Of a stretch of 64,000 nucleotides of DNA, positions 20,713 to 30,056 are shown piece after piece. A program made the position numbers and the translations under genes. Position 1 is the stretch's first letter. The number at the start of each line of letters is the position of its first letter. This DNA is from Gemmatimonadota bacterium (GTDB lineage: Bacteria > Gemmatimonadota > Gemmatimonadetes > Gemmatimonadales > GWC2-71-9): assembly GCA_016874005.1 (NCBI GenBank), contig VGVQ01000001.1, forward strand, positions 372,001 to 436,000. The letters are read 5' to 3'. The notes beneath the pieces were generated by a model that saw only the letters and a list, made by a program, of their open reading frames with translations, was not told the origin of the DNA and ran no database searches.

Positions 20713-21672
20713 ATGCTGACCCTGAACCAGGCCGATTTTGTCGCCGCCCGCGAGCGGATCGCCCCCTACATCCACCGCACCCCGTTGCTGGGCTCCCGCC
20801 AGCTCTCCGAGCGTACCGGGTTCGATATCCGCCTCAAGGCCGAGATGTTTCAGCGGGTCGGGTCGTACAAGGTCAGAGGCCCCCTCAACAAGTTCAACTT
20901 CCTGAGCACCGAGGAGAAACGACGGGGGGTGGTGTGTTCCTCCGCGGGCAACCACGCCCAAGGCGTCGCCTTCGCAGCCAAGATCCACGGAATTCGGGCC
21001 GTCGTCTGCATGGCCGAAAACGCCACCCCGGCCAAGATCGCGGCGACCCGCGAGTATGGCGCCGAGGTCGTCCTCCATGGAAAGATCTGGGACGAGGCCA
21101 ACGAGAAGGCGATGGAACTGGTCCGGACCGAGGGCCTCACCTACATCAGCCCGTTCGACGACGCCGACCTGATCGCGGGCCAAGGGACCCTCGGCCTGGA
21201 GGTCGCCCAAGACTGGCCCGAACTCGATGCCATCGTGGTTCCCATCGGCGGCGGCGGGCTGATCTCCGGGGTCTCGATGGCCGTCAAGAGCCATAATCCC
21301 CGGATCCGTGTCATCGGCGTGGAATCCTCCGACGGCCCCGCGATGCAGGAGTCGCTCGCCGCCGGGGCGCTCAAGACGATCGACTGCCGCACGATCATCG
21401 ATGGTCTCCGGGTCAAGCGGGTCGGTGTCAACACCTTCTCGGTCTGCCAGCGATTCGTCGACGAGGTGGTTGCCCTCCCCGACCGCGAGATCTTCGACGC
21501 CATGATCTGGGTCATGGAACGCTGTAAACTGGTGCTCGAGGGTGCCGCGGCCGCTCCGGTCGCGGCGCTGCTCCACGGCCTGGTCAGGCTTCCGCCGGGG
21601 GCCCGGGTCGTCGCGGTCTTGAGCGGCGGGAACCTCAATCTCGATCAGATCAGGAACCTCAAATGGAACTGA
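20713..21672 (+). CDS. Threonine/serine ammonia-lyase (short, no ACT domain)
   Basis: A 319-residue fold-type II PLP enzyme. The PLP lysine is in RVGSYKVRGPLNKF near residue 55, the substrate loop SSAGNHAQGVA near 80, the phosphate-binding glycine loop PIGGGGLISG near 180, and the end VLSGGNLNLD. This is the catabolic threonine/serine dehydratase type (TdcB-like), giving 2-oxobutyrate or pyruvate via an enamine. Serine racemase is a close alternative. The ATG at 20713 is chosen for the family N-terminus. Its last ten bases overlap the next gene, so they share an mRNA. Confidence 0.87.
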   Translation: MLTLNQADFVAARERIAPYIHRTPLLGSRQLSERTGFDIRLKAEMFQRVGSYKVRGPLNKFNFLSTEEKRRGVVCSSAGNHAQGVAFAAKIHGIRAVVCMAENATPAKIAATREYGAEVVLHGKIWDEANEKAMELVRTEGLTYISPFDDADLIAGQGTLGLEVAQDWPELDAIVVPIGGGGLISGVSMAVKSHNPRIRVIGVESSDGPAMQESLAAGALKTIDCRTIIDGLRVKRVGVNTFSVCQRFVDEVVALPDREIFDAMIWVMERCKLVLEGAAAAPVAALLHGLVRLPPGARVVAVLSGGNLNLDQIRNLKWN

Positions 21673-23291
21673 CTCCAATGCTCCGCATCGTCACGGTCGC
21701 GGCACTCGTCTGGTCGGCCCCCGTCGCGGCCCAAGCCCGGTACGACATCGTCATCCACGGCGGTCGGGTGGTGGACGGGACCGGAGCGCCCTGGTTCTCC
21801 GCCGACCTGGCGATCCAGGACGGGAAGATCGCCGCCATCGGGCGGATCCCGTCCTCGGCTGGGCGCCGGGCCCTCGACGCGTCCGGCAAGGTGGTCGCAC
21901 CCGGGTTCGTCGATATGATGGGACAAACCGCGGCGCCGTTCATCCGCGACCCTGCCACCGCGTTCAATCTCTTGAGCCAGGGTATCACCACACTCAACGC
22001 CGGTGAGGGCGCCAGCGACGCACCCCTGTCCGACAAGGAGGCCGCCGAGCGAGGCTGGCGAACCATGCGGGAGTACTTCGCCAAGCTGGAACAGGCCGGC
22101 TTGCCGATGAACATGGTCCAGACCATCGGCCACACCCAGGTGCGCGAGATCGTCATCGGCGATGTCGACCGTCAGGCCACGACGGCCGAATTGGACCGGA
22201 TGCGGGCCATGGTTCGCGAGGCCATGGAGGCCGGGGCGATCGGACTGTCGACCTCGCTGATCTACCCCCCCGCGATCTACGCCTCGGAATCCGAGATCAC
22301 CGAGCTGGCGAAAGTCGCCGGAGAATATGGCGGGCGGTACTTCACCCACATGCGCAACGAAGGCGACCGACTCCTCGAGGCCATCGATGAAGCCCTTCGG
22401 ATTGGAACCGCCGCCAAGACGCCGGTGCATATCTACCACCTCAAGACCGCCGGCCAGGGAAACTGGGGCAAGATGGATCTGGCCCTCGCCCGGGTTCACG
22501 CGGCCCGCGCGGCCGGCCAACAGGTCGGCGTCGACGTCTACCCCTATGTCAACAACGGCCTCGGCATCCGAGCGCTGATCCACCCTCGTCACGCGGCGGC
22601 CGGCCAGGAGGCTTTGCTCAAGAAGCTCGGCGATCCGGCCGCCCGCGCCGAGATCCGTCGGGAGATGGAGACGGTGGGTGGCTGGGAGAACTGGTTTGCC
22701 CACGCCGGCCGCGATTGGGATCGTATCATCGTGGCCAGGATGCAGGCGCCCTACGATGGCTACAATGGCCAAACCGTCGCCACGATCGCCAAAGCGACCG
22801 GCAAGGACCCTTGGGAGGTGTTCTTTGACCTCTGCCGGACCGACGCCGCCGCCATGCCGCAGTCGATGTCCGAGGCCAACAAGATCAAAGCGATGCAGGC
22901 ACCCTTCACCTCATTCGACACCGATGCCGGCCCCGCCGCCTTCGGCTGGGCGGTGCACCCCCGTGGCTACGGCGCGTTCCCCCGGGTGTTCGCCCGCTAC
23001 GTTCGCGACCTCGGGGCCTTGTCCCTCGAGGCGGCGGTTCACAAGGCAGCGGCCGTCGCCGCTAATGAGGTGGCCGCGTATGACCGGGGCAAGCTGGCTC
23101 CGGGACTCGCCGCCGACGTGGTGGTGTTCGACCCACTCACCATCCGCGATCGGGCGACCTTCGCGGAGCCGAGCCTCCCGTCGGAGGGGATCAGCCTCGT
23201 CTTGGTGAACGGCCAAGTCGTGTTCGAGAACGGGAAGTACACCGGGGCCAAACCGGGTCGAGTCCTCCGGGGCCCGGGCTACCGGCCCTAG
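21663..23291 (+). CDS. Secreted D-aminoacylase-type amidohydrolase with altered metal site
   Basis: A 542-residue protein with a signal peptide to AAQ (residue 25). It has the N-acyl-D-amino-acid deacylase layout: RYDIVIHGGRVVDGTGAPWFSADLAI, GAIGLSTSLIYPP, THMRNEGDRLLEAI, IYHLKTAGQGNWGKM and a final HPRGYGAFPRVFARYVRDLG. The usual PGFID-x-HxH metal motif reads PGFVDMMGQTAA, with no His, and the GNCG segment that gives the bridging Cys reads AGEGASD. The two later His remain. It may be a single-metal or non-catalytic relative. The ATG at 21663 has AGGA upstream; a second ATG at 21678 is possible. Confidence 0.8.
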   Translation: MELTPMLRIVTVAALVWSAPVAAQARYDIVIHGGRVVDGTGAPWFSADLAIQDGKIAAIGRIPSSAGRRALDASGKVVAPGFVDMMGQTAAPFIRDPATAFNLLSQGITTLNAGEGASDAPLSDKEAAERGWRTMREYFAKLEQAGLPMNMVQTIGHTQVREIVIGDVDRQATTAELDRMRAMVREAMEAGAIGLSTSLIYPPAIYASESEITELAKVAGEYGGRYFTHMRNEGDRLLEAIDEALRIGTAAKTPVHIYHLKTAGQGNWGKMDLALARVHAARAAGQQVGVDVYPYVNNGLGIRALIHPRHAAAGQEALLKKLGDPAARAEIRREMETVGGWENWFAHAGRDWDRIIVARMQAPYDGYNGQTVATIAKATGKDPWEVFFDLCRTDAAAMPQSMSEANKIKAMQAPFTSFDTDAGPAAFGWAVHPRGYGAFPRVFARYVRDLGALSLEAAVHKAAAVAANEVAAYDRGKLAPGLAADVVVFDPLTIRDRATFAEPSLPSEGISLVLVNGQVVFENGKYTGAKPGRVLRGPGYRP

Positions 23292-23305: not shown

Positions 23306-24655
23306 ATGCAGCGACGAGATTGGCTCGAGTACGCGGCGCTCGCCTCCGCGACCATCGGCCTCCCCAAACTCGGCTATTCCGTCGACCGGCGGGCCTCCAC
23401 CCGCCCATACCTGGATCTCGCCCTCGACGCGGCCCGATGGATCGAGCGAAGCCGCCAAACCACCGACCGAGGCCCGGTGTACCCCGCCAACCCGCTCGAC
23501 CCCACTTCGGTCGGGCTCGACTTCTATAACGGGATGCCAGGCGTAACGGCCTTCCACGCCGCGCTGGCGTACGCCACCGGCGCTCCCGCCTGGCTGGACG
23601 CGGCCGAGGCCGGCGCCGACTCGCTGGTTCGCTTGGTCGATCAAACCGACCGCATCGACGCGGGACTCTATACCGGCCTGGCTGGCCTGGCCTACACCTG
23701 CGACTGTGTGGCGGCCGCCGGAGGTGCCCGCCGCCACCACGAGGCCGCGGTCCGGTTGACCGCCCGGATCACCGCCGCCGCGCGCCGCGATGCCAGCGGG
23801 GCGCGCTGGAGTGAATCGTGGGACATCATCAGCGGCGCGGCTGGCACCGGGCTCTACCTGCTCGAGGCCGGACGGGCCCGAGGAGACCGCGCCCTCGTCG
23901 ACCTCGCGGGCCAAGCCGGCCACGCGCTCCTAGCCGCCGCCCGCCCCCGCGAGTCCGGACTGATGTGGTACCCAGCTGAGCATTTCAACCGGAACTACCC
24001 CAACTTCTCGCACGGGACGTCCGGGGTTGGCTATTTCCTCGCCAGCCTCTATCGGGCGACCAGGGAACGAGCCTTTCTGGAGGGAGCGCTGGCAGCCGCC
24101 CGGTACCTCGACGCCGTGGCGGCCCGCGACGGCAACGGCATCAAGGTGTTCCACCAGGACGGTGGTGGCGAGAACCGCTTCTACCTGAGCTGGTGCCACG
24201 GCCCACCGGGGACGGCGCGGTTGTTCTATCGCCTCTCCCAGATCACCGGCGAGGCTCGCTGGTCGACCTGGATCGATGGCCTCACCAACGCGGTGTTCGA
24301 CAGCGGGGCCCCGGAACGGCGATCGGCCGGCTATTGGGACAACATCTCCCAGTGCTGTGGCAACGTCGGGATCGGCCAGTATTGCATCGACCTGATTCGG
24401 TGGCGCCCGACCGCGGGGACCGAGGCGTTGCTGGAGCGGGTGGTGGATGACACCAGGCGCCGGGCAACCAAGGACGATACCGGCCTTCGCTGGATCCAGG
24501 CCGAGAACCGAACCCAACCTGACAACCTCGTCGCCCAGACCGGATTCATGCAGGGCGCCGCCGGCGTCGGGATGTTCTATCTCCAGCTCGACGCGCTCCA
24601 GCGAGGCGCGGCGTGGCCGTTCCCGCTTCCGGACACGCCCTGGGTGGCGGGGTAG
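23306..24655 (+). CDS. Exported LanC-like (lanthionine synthetase C-type) protein
   Basis: A 449-residue alpha/alpha-barrel protein. The N-terminus QRRDWLEYAALASATIGLPK is a Tat-like twin-arginine leader. LanC repeats are visible: GLYTGLAGLAY, SHGTSGVGYFLA, then the zinc motifs SWCHGPPGTARLF near residue 294 and SQCCGNVGIGQYC near 350, and the last GFMQGAAGVGMFYLQL. LanC enzymes hold zinc with Cys (WCxG) and Cys-His (CHG). Here CHG is CCG, so the ligand set would be Cys-Cys-Cys. No precursor peptide, LanB or LanM is nearby. GGAGAAGG precedes the ATG, 14 bases after the amidohydrolase stop. Confidence 0.8.
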   Translation: MQRRDWLEYAALASATIGLPKLGYSVDRRASTRPYLDLALDAARWIERSRQTTDRGPVYPANPLDPTSVGLDFYNGMPGVTAFHAALAYATGAPAWLDAAEAGADSLVRLVDQTDRIDAGLYTGLAGLAYTCDCVAAAGGARRHHEAAVRLTARITAAARRDASGARWSESWDIISGAAGTGLYLLEAGRARGDRALVDLAGQAGHALLAAARPRESGLMWYPAEHFNRNYPNFSHGTSGVGYFLASLYRATRERAFLEGALAAARYLDAVAARDGNGIKVFHQDGGGENRFYLSWCHGPPGTARLFYRLSQITGEARWSTWIDGLTNAVFDSGAPERRSAGYWDNISQCCGNVGIGQYCIDLIRWRPTAGTEALLERVVDDTRRRATKDDTGLRWIQAENRTQPDNLVAQTGFMQGAAGVGMFYLQLDALQRGAAWPFPLPDTPWVAG

Positions 24656-24659
24656 GACG

Positions 24660-27600
24660 CTATTGCCCGATCCGCGCCTCGAGACGGTAGCGACCGGTAT
24701 GGGGCGCGGGATTCTGCGAGTTGGTGCCACCACTCGCCTCGACCACCAGGTAATAGGTTCCCGGGGTGAGCTGGCGCCGGATCCGTGAGCAGCGGTTGCC
24801 TACCAACGACCCTCCGTCCTGGGGATCGATGTCGTCGTGGCTCTCGAGTGGCGTCGCTTGGGCGTCCTGGAGGGTGATCTTGGTATTCAGCTCGAGCGCG
24901 AATCGGCAGAAGGCGCCGCCGAACCCCGACGTCTCGAAGGTATAGGTTCCGCTGACCGGGATCAGAATCCGGTACACGTCCGCGGCGTCCCCCGCCTGGA
25001 TCTCGCCATGGACCGTCGTGCCGGGCAGCAGAAGTCCAGCCGTCGCGATGGTGTTATTGGGCTCCGATTCCGCGGCCGTGCCTAACACAAAGAAGGCCGA
25101 GCCACCCGCTTGGGCCGTGGCCCTGACGGTGGTGGGCGTGTGGGCCCCACCGAACCCGCCCCACCGCCGTCCCGGAGCACCGACGACACCGTCGTTATCC
25201 TCGTCGTCGCCACCGAAGACCCAGTAGTCACCGGGCGCCACGCCACTGAAGGTGAAGTTCTGGCCGGTCGTCGGCACGGTGGCCACGGTCGCGCCGCTGG
25301 CGGCGTTGAACAATCGGGCGAACAAACGCCGCGGGGGCCCCAGCGTCTGGGTGAGACTGTTGCGGGCGTTGAGCAGCCCCGCGCCGTAGACTTGGTCGAC
25401 CCCAGCCGCGCCGACGTCCACCGCGTAGTTGAGCAGCCGATTGCGGAGCCCCTGCACCGTCAGCGCCGGCGTCTGGGCCAGCAGCAGGGCCGCGACCCCG
25501 CTCACGTGCGGCGACGCCATCGAGGTCCCACCGTACCGGGCATACCCTGGGATACAGGGCGTCTGACGGAAATCGCAGACCGCCGAGTGCACCAGCCAGG
25601 TGCCGTCGGGCTGGGCGGGGAGAATGTCACCGCCGGGCGCGGCGATGTCGACCGCCGGCCCGGTGTTGGAGTAGCTCGCGATCGTGCCTAACGGGCCGAC
25701 CGCCGACACCGTGAGCGGCTCGTCGTAGCCAGCCGGACAATGGCGGCTGGTCGTCGAGTTCTCGTTCCCGGCCGACACCACCACCAGCGCCCCGGCCGCG
25801 GTCGCCGCGGCGATCGCGTCCTTGAGCGGACTCGGGTTGCTGGGATTGCAGTCCCCCCCCAAGCTCATGTTGATGATCCGGGCCGGCACCGCCGGAGGCG
25901 CGAGCGTTCCGGCTCCGCCGTCCGACGCCGGCAGACCGGCGGCATAGAGCACCCCTTGCGAGATCCCGAAGAACGACCCGCTCCCCCCGACCCCCAGGAC
26001 CCGGATTGGACGAATCTTGACCCTCCAGCTCGCGCCCGTTCCCCCGATACCGTCGTTGCCCGCGGCACCCACCGTGCCGCTGACGTGGAGCCCGTGACCT
26101 CCGGCTTGGTCGGGTTCGCCCCAGCAAGGCGGGTTGCGGGCCGGGTCCGAGGGACGGTCACTCGGTTGGGTCGGGTCCGGATCGAACCCATCGCCATCGC
26201 CGGCGTTGTCGAATCTCCCCCCGGCACACAGCGTCAGCGAATCGGTGGCGACGAAATCGTAGCCGTCCGCCGTGAGATTGCCCGTGAACACCGGGTGATC
26301 GAACCGGATGCCGGTGTCGAGGACCGCGACGATGACGTTCGCGCTGCCCGTGGTGATGCTCCAGGCACGCGGCAGGTCGACCATCACGTAGTGCCAGGAC
26401 TGATTGGGATAGAGCGGATCGTTCGGGATCGCCGGCGGAGCCGCGAACGACGCCCTATGGGCCCAAGCCACTTGGTCGGGTACGACCCACTCCACCGCGG
26501 GGTCGGCGGCGATGGCCTGCCGCACCGAATCGATATCGACACCGGGTCCGACCACCAGTCGGGCGGACTGAATCACCGGACTGATACCGGCTAGCCGGGT
26601 TCCCGCCCGCACGTGGGTCGTCAGCCGCTGGCCGATCGACCGCGATACCGACGCCGCGAACGAGGTCCCCCCGCGGAACGAGGCGGGAGTCGCTCCCGCC
26701 GCACCGACCGCCGCCGACCGGAACCGGATCACCAAGGCACGAATGCCACCGACGCTACCGCTCGTCCGGGGAAGCCGCACCAATTCCGGACCGAAGGATC
26801 CGAGCCGAAGACGAACGGGCTGATTCAGCCGCTCGAGGGCCGCGGCCAGCGTTGTCTGAGGCGCCGGAACCGCCTGGTCGGCGATCTGGCCGACGATCTG
26901 GCCGGCCGGCGGAACGAGGGCCGTTGCGGTGAACGCGGCCGGTGCGCCAGCCAACGTCGGGACCACCGCGTTCAGCCCCTGCGCCCCACCAACCGGCCCG
27001 AGGGTCCACCGGACCGACGCCCGACCGTTGACGTCGGTAGTCGCGGATGCCGCGTCGGCGGTTCCGCCGCCAGCGACAACGTTCCATTGGACGGCCACCC
27101 CCTGGACCCCTTGGCCGCCCGGACTGCGGGCAACGACCCGAAGCGGGGCCAGCAGCGGACTGTTAGGCGACCCCGTCTGCTGATTGCCCGATTCGATCGA
27201 CAAGGTCCCCGCCGTGAATCGACCGGTGGCGAACGCCACGGTCGACACCCCCGATCCATCGACCCCGATCAACAGTTGGTTGCCATTCTCGACCGCGTTG
27301 GCCGGCCCGAGCGTGAACTGGGTCGCCACCCGTCCCTGGTCATTGCTCACCGCGGAAGTGGGCGACGCCTGCCCACCGCCGGCGATCGGCTGAAAATTCA
27401 TCCTGATCCCGCCCACCGGATTCCCGAACTGGTCCTTGACAGTCGCCCGGATTGAATCTGCCAACGCCACCCCCAAGGCACCGGCCTGCCCCCCGCCAGC
27501 GGAAAGCTCGACGGACGCCGGAGTGCCGACCTGACCGGTCGCGACGAACCCAACCGGCGAGCCGGTCAAACCGGTCGCCGTCGCGGTTACCCGTTGGCCG

Positions 27601-27923
27601 TTGGGTCCGATGGTTGGGCCCAAGGTCCAGATGGTGCTCGCCTCGCCATTGGCCAACGTCGTGGCGGTGGCGGCCGTCACCGCCCCGCCGCCCAGGGCAA
27701 CCTCGAACCGAACCGATACGCCCGCCACCCCGGCTCCAGCCGAGTTCGCCGCTCTGACGGTCAGCGGGACCGAAAGCGGCGAGCCGACGGGGCCGGTCTG
27801 TCCATCGCCGGTCACCAGTTGCAGTTGGGTCGCCCGGGCGGTGTCGTCCGGCCCCTCGTCCTTGCCGCCGCACCCGACCACTGTTCCCAGGCCAACCAGA
27901 AGTACGAGTTGTCGAGAGGTCAT
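24660..27923 (-). CDS. Subtilisin-family (S8) protease lipoprotein with Ig-like repeats and PPC domain
   Basis: 1087 residues. The leader LVLLVGLGTVVGCGGKD has a clear lipobox (VVGC). Three bacterial Ig-like domains of about 100 residues follow, each with the pattern GxGQ-G-P and NGxAxxxWTLGP. A propeptide-like region leads to the S8 catalytic domain: Asp in AVLDTGIRFDHP, His in GGHGLHVSGTVG, Ser in GGTSMASPHVSGVAALL. After it come a small beta domain (PGDYWVFGGDDEDNDG) and a C-terminal PPC domain (SEPNNTIATAG ... GTYYLVVEASGG). It is probably a surface-anchored endopeptidase. The ATG at 27921-27923 has GGAG six bases upstream. Confidence 0.9.
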   Translation of the reverse strand: MTSRQLVLLVGLGTVVGCGGKDEGPDDTARATQLQLVTGDGQTGPVGSPLSVPLTVRAANSAGAGVAGVSVRFEVALGGGAVTAATATTLANGEASTIWTLGPTIGPNGQRVTATATGLTGSPVGFVATGQVGTPASVELSAGGGQAGALGVALADSIRATVKDQFGNPVGGIRMNFQPIAGGGQASPTSAVSNDQGRVATQFTLGPANAVENGNQLLIGVDGSGVSTVAFATGRFTAGTLSIESGNQQTGSPNSPLLAPLRVVARSPGGQGVQGVAVQWNVVAGGGTADAASATTDVNGRASVRWTLGPVGGAQGLNAVVPTLAGAPAAFTATALVPPAGQIVGQIADQAVPAPQTTLAAALERLNQPVRLRLGSFGPELVRLPRTSGSVGGIRALVIRFRSAAVGAAGATPASFRGGTSFAASVSRSIGQRLTTHVRAGTRLAGISPVIQSARLVVGPGVDIDSVRQAIAADPAVEWVVPDQVAWAHRASFAAPPAIPNDPLYPNQSWHYVMVDLPRAWSITTGSANVIVAVLDTGIRFDHPVFTGNLTADGYDFVATDSLTLCAGGRFDNAGDGDGFDPDPTQPSDRPSDPARNPPCWGEPDQAGGHGLHVSGTVGAAGNDGIGGTGASWRVKIRPIRVLGVGGSGSFFGISQGVLYAAGLPASDGGAGTLAPPAVPARIINMSLGGDCNPSNPSPLKDAIAAATAAGALVVVSAGNENSTTSRHCPAGYDEPLTVSAVGPLGTIASYSNTGPAVDIAAPGGDILPAQPDGTWLVHSAVCDFRQTPCIPGYARYGGTSMASPHVSGVAALLLAQTPALTVQGLRNRLLNYAVDVGAAGVDQVYGAGLLNARNSLTQTLGPPRRLFARLFNAASGATVATVPTTGQNFTFSGVAPGDYWVFGGDDEDNDGVVGAPGRRWGGFGGAHTPTTVRATAQAGGSAFFVLGTAAESEPNNTIATAGLLLPGTTVHGEIQAGDAADVYRILIPVSGTYTFETSGFGGAFCRFALELNTKITLQDAQATPLESHDDIDPQDGGSLVGNRCSRIRRQLTPGTYYLVVEASGGTNSQNPAPHTGRYRLEARIGQ

Positions 27924-27962
27924 CGAGACTCCATCCCGCGAAGGAACCGACCGCGCCGCACA

Positions 27963-27991
27963 ATTCTTGTATCCGGGAAGACCGCTGTCAA
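27963..27991 (-). promoter_or_regulatory. Sigma-70-like promoter for the S8 protease
   Basis: On the minus strand TTGACA (27991-27986) and AAGAAT (27968-27963) are 17 bases apart. The transcript would start near 27956, leaving a leader of about 33 bases with GGAG before the ATG. It makes the protease a unit separate from the S9 operon upstream. Confidence 0.5.
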
Positions 27992-28058
27992 CATCGACCG
28001 GCGATCGAACAACCAGTTTCTTGACACCCGGTCCGGCCAACCCCCCTGGCGCCGATCC

Positions 28059-30056
28059 TCAGGGCACCGGCGCCGGTTGGACAAACCGCTCCCACCAGGT
28101 GTAATACCTGGTCATGATGTCGTATCGGTGGCTGGGCGCGCTCGGTCCGTGGAACATGCCGGGATAAACCACCAGCTTGGTCTCCACCCCAGTGGACTTG
28201 AGGGCCTGGTACATCTGCTCCGAACCGATGATCGGGACGTTGAAGTCTTTCTCGCCGCCCATGAAGAGGGTAGGCGTGGTGATCCGATCGGCCTTGAAGA
28301 ACGGATACGAGACTTTCATCCAGGCCTCCGGGCTCTTCCACGGCACCCCGAGCTCCTGCTCGTACTGATAGACGTATTGATCGGATCCGTACATCGACAA
28401 CTGGAGGGCGCTACCCGCGCCGCTGACCCCCGCCTTGAACCGGGTGTCGGTGGCGATCGTGTAGTCGGTCAGAATGCCGCCGTAACTCCAGCCTCCGAGG
28501 ACCAATCGGTCGGGGTCGGCGTACCCCTTCGCGACGGCCTCATCGACCGCCCCGAGGAGGTCGACGACCTCCTTGTTGCCCCAGTCGGCGAAGATCGCCC
28601 GGCTGAACGCTTCGCCCCGTCCCGAGCTGCCTCGATAGTTGGGCGCCAGCACCGCAAACCCCCGGGCCGCAAGCACCCGCCGGAGAAGATCGAAATCGTG
28701 ACCATCCTGGCCGAACGGTCCGCCATGGATCTGCAGCGCCAGCGGGTACCTCTGGCCCGCTCGATACCCCGGAGGGAGATAGAGCATGCTCCCCACGGCC
28801 GTCCCATCCTTGCTCTTCGAGTCGAGCCGCAACGCCGGACCCAAGTCGATCGTGGCCATCAGGGAATCATTGTGGGTCGACAACCGCCGGAAACCGCCTT
28901 GCTCGAGCGCGGCGATCTCGGTGGGCTCACCGTCGGTGCTGGTCGCCACCGCGATCTTCGACCCCCTCACCGACATCCCGGTGATGCCCCGTTTGGCGTC
29001 GACGATCACCTCTACCGCGCCGCTTGCCAGGGCCACCCTGCCCACCGGTACCGATCGGTCGTCGTCGTACAGGAAGTAGAGCGAACCGCCGTCCGCCGAC
29101 CACCGCAATTCGGCCACCGGCCGGTCGAGACGCTCCGTCAACACCCGGGTCTCGCCGCCAGCGCTCGGGACCACGGCCGCCCGAGTGTTGTTGTAGGCCC
29201 AGTACTTGGGATCGCCGCCTCGGAGGAAGGCGATCCATTTGCCGTCTGGACTGAACGTGGGCCTACCACCCCGCCCTCCATCGGCTCCCGGGAAGCTGGT
29301 GAGGGCCCTCGGCTCGGAGCCAGGCTTGGCGTCGATCAGATAGATGTCGGAGTTGTCGTTGCGATCACTCCCGGGGGCCCGTTTGCTGACGAACGCGATC
29401 TGGGTCCCGTCCGGCGACCAGGCCGGCCCGCCGTCGTCGTAGTCTCCGCGGGTCAGTTGCTCGATCGTCCGGCTGGCGAGGTCGAACAGATAGAGATGAT
29501 CGCGCCGCCGGTTGAGATAGCCGGCATAGTCTCGCTTGAAATCCCACCGGTCGATCTCCAGGGGCTTGGGTGTCTTCTTCTCCTTCCCGGCAGTCGTGTC
29601 CGGATCGGGGTCGGTTACCACCAGCACGAATCGCTTCGCATCCGGCGACCATTCGTAGTCGCCCACTCCCTGCTTGAGGTCGGTCACTTTCCGGGCCTCG
29701 CCACCCAGTCGATCGAGCAACCAGATCTGGGCCCCCTTCTCCTCCTCGCCCCGGCTGCTGGTGAAGGCGAGGAACCGATTGTCGGGACTCCATTTCGGAT
29801 TGCCCTCGGCGTCCGGCGACGAGGTTACCTGCACGGTCTTGCTGCCGTCCCAGCTGACCATGTAGATGTCGGTGTTCCGCTTGTCCTTCGCGGAGTCCGA
29901 CGTCGTCACGGTATAGGCAACCCATTGTCCGTCGGGCGAGATCACCGGCGCGCCGACGTCCTTCAGCCGGTAGATATCCCCCGGCACCAAGCGACGCTTT
30001 GCCTGCGCGGCGACCACCGTGGGCACCAGCCAGAACAGCAGCAACAGTTGTCTCAT
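28059..30056 (-). CDS. S9 family prolyl-oligopeptidase-type peptidase
   Basis: A 665-residue exported protein; residues 1-18 are a signal peptide. A WD40-like/TolB beta-propeller covers about 25-390, with repeats of the SPDGxxxAF type (PVISPDGQWVAYT, KWSPDNRFLAFT, AWSPDGTQIAFVS, TFSPDGKWIAFLR). The alpha/beta-hydrolase domain has LQIHGGPFGQDG, the nucleophile in GGWSYGGILTDY near residue 530, the Asp in GGEKDFNVP and the His in PGMFHGPS. It cleaves short peptides in the periplasm (DPP IV / acylaminoacyl-peptidase group). The ATG overlaps the GT2 stop by four bases. Confidence 0.92.
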   Translation of the reverse strand: MRQLLLLFWLVPTVVAAQAKRRLVPGDIYRLKDVGAPVISPDGQWVAYTVTTSDSAKDKRNTDIYMVSWDGSKTVQVTSSPDAEGNPKWSPDNRFLAFTSSRGEEEKGAQIWLLDRLGGEARKVTDLKQGVGDYEWSPDAKRFVLVVTDPDPDTTAGKEKKTPKPLEIDRWDFKRDYAGYLNRRRDHLYLFDLASRTIEQLTRGDYDDGGPAWSPDGTQIAFVSKRAPGSDRNDNSDIYLIDAKPGSEPRALTSFPGADGGRGGRPTFSPDGKWIAFLRGGDPKYWAYNNTRAAVVPSAGGETRVLTERLDRPVAELRWSADGGSLYFLYDDDRSVPVGRVALASGAVEVIVDAKRGITGMSVRGSKIAVATSTDGEPTEIAALEQGGFRRLSTHNDSLMATIDLGPALRLDSKSKDGTAVGSMLYLPPGYRAGQRYPLALQIHGGPFGQDGHDFDLLRRVLAARGFAVLAPNYRGSSGRGEAFSRAIFADWGNKEVVDLLGAVDEAVAKGYADPDRLVLGGWSYGGILTDYTIATDTRFKAGVSGAGSALQLSMYGSDQYVYQYEQELGVPWKSPEAWMKVSYPFFKADRITTPTLFMGGEKDFNVPIIGSEQMYQALKSTGVETKLVVYPGMFHGPSAPSHRYDIMTRYYTWWERFVQPAPVP

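Follow-up and report, generated by a model that had tools for sequence, protein, structure and literature searches.

A standalone LanC-like protein with a predicted twin-arginine export signal in Gemmatimonadota and its possible part in peptide scavenging

The open reading frame at 23306-24655 (+) of the window, by which we mean the whole 64,000-nucleotide stretch of DNA analysed here from a soil-type Gemmatimonadota bacterium, encodes a LanC-like protein of 449 amino acids, and both its LanC identity and its export signal are well supported. LanC-family enzymes close the thioether rings of lanthipeptides, yet this one, with its catalytic set intact, carries an export signal and has genes for the breakdown of peptides and amino acids as neighbours in place of lanthipeptide genes, which suggests a role in extracytoplasmic thiol chemistry on peptides. 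The reading that we favour, tentatively and at a probability of roughly 0.4, is that of a zinc-dependent LanC enzyme exported through the Tat system and engaged in reversible thiol/dehydroamino-acid chemistry during peptide scavenging, not in lanthipeptide synthesis. The features on which the argument draws are the following.

20713-21672, + strand: PLP threonine/serine dehydratase-like gene (TIGR01127, 368 bits against a cutoff of 379).
21663-23291 (start 21663 or 21678), + strand: exported amidohydrolase related to N-acyl-D-amino-acid deacylases (PF07969).
23306-24655, + strand: standalone LanC-like protein, 449 aa, with twin-arginine leader and putative CCC zinc triad (PF05147, AlphaFold2/Foldseek, 38 family members).
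23306-23380, + strand: predicted twin-arginine leader MQRRDWLEYAALASATIGLPKLGYS, with R3-R4 invariant.
23822-23836, + strand: DIISG motif with D173, at the position of NisC Asp141 by motif; D173 and G177 invariant.
24005-24016, + strand: FSHG motif (NFSHG) with the acid H236, at the position of LanCL1 His219; invariant.
24191-24202, + strand: WCHG motif (SWCHG) with C297 and H298, at the positions of LanCL1 Cys276 and His277; invariant (roles in PMC9934072).
24353-24361, + strand: CCG motif (QCCG) with the putative zinc ligands C350 and C351.
24491-24565, + strand: C-terminal family-specific motif WxQAExRxxP...AQTGxMQGAAG, from a 12-row alignment.

The frame opens with ATG, with GGAGAAGG a few bases 5' of it, and its product matches PF05147 (LANC_like) over residues 69-439, that is, over the full barrel, at 5.7e-35 and 121 bits against a cutoff of 23.2; all LanC motifs were found, in agreement with the sequence-only reading, which had taken the product for a LanC-like protein. 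According to profile search this is the sole domain of the protein, no DUF4135 dehydratase being fused at the N-terminus, and among NCBIfam models it comes closest to the cyclase end of LanM, though short of the cutoff of that model, which describes a two-domain protein. An AlphaFold2 model built with nine relatives reached a mean pLDDT of 83.7 and a pTM of 0.86, with lower confidence near the putative zinc site. Its fold is an (alpha/alpha) toroid, and the top 20 PDB matches returned by Foldseek are all of LanC, LanCL, LanM or LanL type, the nearest being MadC, CuvL, plant GCR2, LanCL1, LicM2, ThurKC, LanCL2 and NisC. Other proteins of this general fold, GH76 mannanases and sugar epimerases, rank lower; since LanC-type structures come nearest and glycosidases later, the product is better described as a LanC-type protein than as just an (alpha/alpha) barrel.

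By position, Cys297 and the pair Cys350-Cys351 correspond to Cys284, Cys330 and His331 of NisC, C351 replacing the usual His, and HMMER alignment places SWCHG against WCHG of LANCL2 and QCCG against QCCG of CuvL (PDB 8CAR). The Cys/Cys-Cys set proposed from the letters holds throughout the family: SWCHG and xCCG, and with them the three cysteines, are present in all 38 distinct sequences (window protein included), which rules out CCG as an oddity of one genome or a sequencing error. Selenocysteine was also considered and discarded, the in-frame TGA of many relatives being an ordinary stop after LPDDPW that a match of the phylum search had overrun. Across the 12 aligned rows D173, H236, C297, H298, C350 and C351 are invariant, as are W396, Q398, E400, R402, Q411 and Q416 of the C-terminal motif and H283, for which a ligand role is conceivable. 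In LanCL1, His277 stabilises the enolate and His219 serves as the acid (PMC9934072), and with H298 and H236 at these positions the catalytic set is complete. CCG, which the sequence-only reading had singled out as odd, is not so in itself: the Cys/Cys-Cys triad (CCC or CCG) is already known from ProcM/SyncM-type LanMs (PMC10027976, PMC11251773) and occurs in CuvL.

The twin-arginine leader, likewise claimed earlier, is a trait of the whole family. R3-R4 are the sole invariant residues at the extreme N-terminus of the 12-row alignment, and 38 of 38 members carry RR, in forms such as RRSFL, RRDFL and RRTFL, followed by an alanine-rich stretch; 35 of the 38 pass an automatic filter for RR plus a hydrophobic stretch, and the window protein, L010 and L073 were scored RR by eye. 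Because the hydrophobic part of the window leader is weak (EYAALASATIGLP), the case for export is drawn from the family and not from this one leader; TatC is encoded in the genome, and export of the family is strongly predicted. Tat transports folded, metal-loaded proteins, and this route would suit a putative enzyme that holds its metal on three thiolates. In the literature searched, which lay mostly outside subscription journals, we found neither an exported LanC cyclase nor a LanC family with export signals, and the unusual feature is the predicted export of a cyclase, CCG itself being known. The earlier claim that all known lanthipeptide enzymes work in the cytoplasm was too broad, the lanthipeptide leader protease NisP acting outside the cell.

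Several known systems resemble the protein in part. Eukaryotic LanCL1 and LanCL2, glutathione transferases acting on dehydroamino acids, are likewise standalone, have both the acid His and the WCHG His and no lanthipeptide partner, but they differ by a Cys/Cys-His zinc set, are not exported by Tat and are about 15% identical to the LanC-like protein in the fold comparison. The cyclase domains of ProcM/SyncM-type LanMs have the Cys/Cys-Cys set in common with it, ProcM also having the WCHG His, and CuvL (PDB 8CAR/8CAV), the best PDB profile match by E-value, has QCCG in common; the former, however, are fused to a dehydratase and served by precursor peptides, and the latter is a trifunctional synthetase that includes a kinase and has a precursor peptide, whereas the Gemmatimonadota protein stands alone behind an export leader. 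The class I cyclases NisC and MadC are alike in fold (TM-score 0.60-0.70) but are cytoplasmic, with Cys/Cys-His and a LanB partner, NisC having Tyr after the first ligand. Cytoplasmic standalone proteins recorded as "lanthionine synthetase LanC family protein" in Mesobacillus, Streptomyces and Nonomuraea have CCG and equal length in common with the exported family, identity being about 30% across about 90% for the three best cytoplasmic relatives; they differ by the lack of the twin-arginine leader and by a separate tree branch of moderate support, and the Mesobacillus and Nonomuraea proteins are devoid of the acid His.

The gene is the only LanC in its own genome. A close full-length relative is present in about 37 of the 395 phylum genomes sampled, scattered across several families, and further relatives come from records titled Gemmatimonadetes and from two contigs titled Acidobacteria; L021 and L022 are single MAG contigs of putative Acidobacteriota assignment, and L022, whose protein is 75% identical to that of the window, may be a mis-binned Gemmatimonadota contig. 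In the tree the exported proteins form one group with moderate support (76/78); it lies apart from the LanM cyclases (100/99) and adjoins standalone CCG proteins from the cytoplasm of Actinomycetota and Bacillota. The leader is absent from the cytoplasmic standalone relatives, and the acid His is lost in two of four of them; at L083:6929-8257 and L085:6869-8284 CCG is kept and the sequences FYGTSG and LAGTAG stand where the acid His is lost, and their function is probably another one. A different arrangement was seen at L031:6198-8264 (-), where an alpha/beta hydrolase carries a LanC-like domain behind it with the zinc motifs lost (WAHG, FGLAG), and in L060 and L071 (G122 contig 37) the reading frame of one exported LanC copy is interrupted behind SWCHG by an in-frame TAG, a sign of a pseudogene or a sequence error.

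Throughout the genus the operon runs in the order threonine/serine dehydratase, exported D-aminoacylase-like amidohydrolase, LanC last. The amidohydrolase, which has a signal peptide and is of D-aminoacylase type (its similarity to PRK09061 lying below cutoff), ends 14 bp upstream of LanC, a synteny kept in five genomes of the genus; the dehydratase-like gene, syntenic in the genus too, overlaps the amidohydrolase start or precedes it by 5 bp, according to which of the two starts is taken. On the opposite strand, window positions 24660-28040 (-) encode a large subtilase that contains Big_1 domains and runs towards LanC across a 4 bp gap; in related genomes other genes take its place. Window positions 28059-30056 (-) hold an exported S9 peptidase (Dpp5-like), syntenic in the genus, that resembles lasso-peptide isopeptidases far under the cutoff of that model.

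In other lineages the neighbours differ in identity and recur in kind. LanC is preceded in L076 by a diaminopropionate ammonia-lyase (above the NCBI cutoff) and an M20 peptidase; it is followed in L018 by an M19 dipeptidase and both halves of an SdaA-type serine dehydratase, and in L021 by a PLP dehydratase, M28 and an M55 D-aminopeptidase. In L020 and its genus a TolB-like amidohydrolase stands before LanC and a PLP decarboxylase after it, the latter lying beside LanC in three genera (that of L020 and two more), while penicillin-acylase family proteins, prolyl oligopeptidase and amidohydrolases occur near LanC in further lineages. Several lineages (L027, L062) have none of these genes, the neighbourhood differing by lineage. 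In a leave-lineage-out test, with all genes handled alike and each compared solely with other lineages, cross-lineage resemblance was found for 21 of 82 genes within two places of LanC versus 18 of 162 farther ones (p = 0.004), a modest enrichment that partly reflects shared synteny (transketolase, HerA-type ATPase) and is to be read with functional categories named post hoc in genomes rich in secreted peptidases.

That neither a precursor nor a dehydratase of lantibiotic type lies near the gene had been remarked earlier and proved correct. The LanM-type dehydratase (PF13575, DUF4135) was not found anywhere in the genome by a search that was positive in four other genomes, and it occurs in only 2 of the 18 genomes with an exported LanC (G001, G043); LanB (PF04738) gave no match in the genome in a search run without a positive control. 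No precursor frame adjoins the LanC gene, since the nearest genes lie 14 bp away on the upstream side and 4 bp away on the downstream side and leave no room for one.

Conserved chemistry, export signal and the recurrence of exported amide hydrolases and cytosolic beta-eliminating PLP enzymes together suggest the scavenging of peptides or amino acids. In this scheme a LanC-type enzyme would fold and take up zinc in the cytoplasm, cross the membrane folded by way of Tat and work on small peptides in the envelope, where zinc on Cys297, Cys350 and Cys351 would activate a thiol, His298 would stabilise the enolate and His236 would give or take the alpha proton. Thiols might be added to dehydroalanine or dehydrobutyrine residues, or thioethers split in the reverse direction, and the enzyme would serve peptide and amino-acid scavenging alongside hydrolases that are exported and PLP lyases that stay in the cytosol. 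The parts of this scheme that we infer are actual export, zinc binding, catalysis, substrate and direction; as to direction, the retro-Michael reaction is documented for LanC-type enzymes in a passage of PMC9934072 that cites Yang and van der Donk (2015). A narrower version, which we hold to be improbable, is an exported "delanthionase" that would run LanC chemistry backwards, opening thioether rings or stripping thiols to leave dehydroamino acids.

The main rival to peptide scavenging, unlikely though it seems to us, is an envelope counterpart of LanCL, in which a small thiol would quench dehydroamino acids arising from damage to envelope proteins or brought in by foreign peptides. The protein does keep the WCHG His used by LanCL1 and, like LanCL, is standalone, with the LanM-type dehydratase absent from the genome; the same His is present in ProcM and HalM2, however, and is hence not diagnostic, low-molecular-weight thiols are not a known feature of the envelope in these bacteria, the peptidase neighbours would be tied to this role only loosely, and the recurrence of PLP lyases and peptidases is left unexplained. 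Somewhat less probable again is an (alpha/alpha) barrel turned to a new use, the hydrolysis or binding of some other ligand such as a sugar, with a zinc site that is structural, an idea to which the GH76 mannanases and sugar epimerases among the lower Foldseek ranks and the Bacteroidales standalone "LanC" genes judged likely glycosidases (PMC10352776) lend some colour. Those Bacteroidales proteins, though, are without the LanC residues (PMC10352776), every one of which the exported family keeps, LanC structures come clearly first in Foldseek, and most lineages have no carbohydrate genes as LanC neighbours; a misannotated glycosidase of the Bacteroidales kind was accordingly rejected as the leading view.

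The thiol trap or binder of modified peptides that the sequence-only reading had put forward, in effect a zinc-thiolate binder or sensor without catalysis, would agree with export and with a three-thiolate zinc site suited to metal or thiol binding. It is possible, yet we give it a low probability and consider catalysis likelier because neither the two catalytic His nor the Asp ever varies; together with the barrel motifs, the acid His, the enolate His and this Asp are more conserved than a binder requires. Least probable of all is a lanthipeptide cyclase acting on a peptide that a dehydratase encoded at another locus would have modified and that would be exported on its own. Membership of the LanC family and the action of CCC-type LanMs on peptides scattered genome-wide (PMC10027976) speak for it; the lack of the LanM dehydratase in the genome, the missing LanB match (from the search without positive control), the want of space for an adjoining precursor and the RR leader in all relatives speak against it.

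A LanC protein in a bacterium is nearly always taken for a maker of lanthipeptides, and genome miners flag the surrounding genes as a biosynthetic cluster. An exported family that is conserved, keeps its site intact and has neither dehydratase nor precursor would show another bacterial use of LanC chemistry, parallel to that of eukaryotic LanCL, and its three-gene operon would offer a tractable system for finding the role of LanC. If thioethers are broken, the activity would be a lantibiotic-degrading one; should the "delanthionase" version be true, exported D-acylases, M19/M20/M55 peptidases and cytosolic beta-eliminating PLP lyases could together degrade lantibiotics and other peptides with D-residues or thioethers, for food or for immunity.
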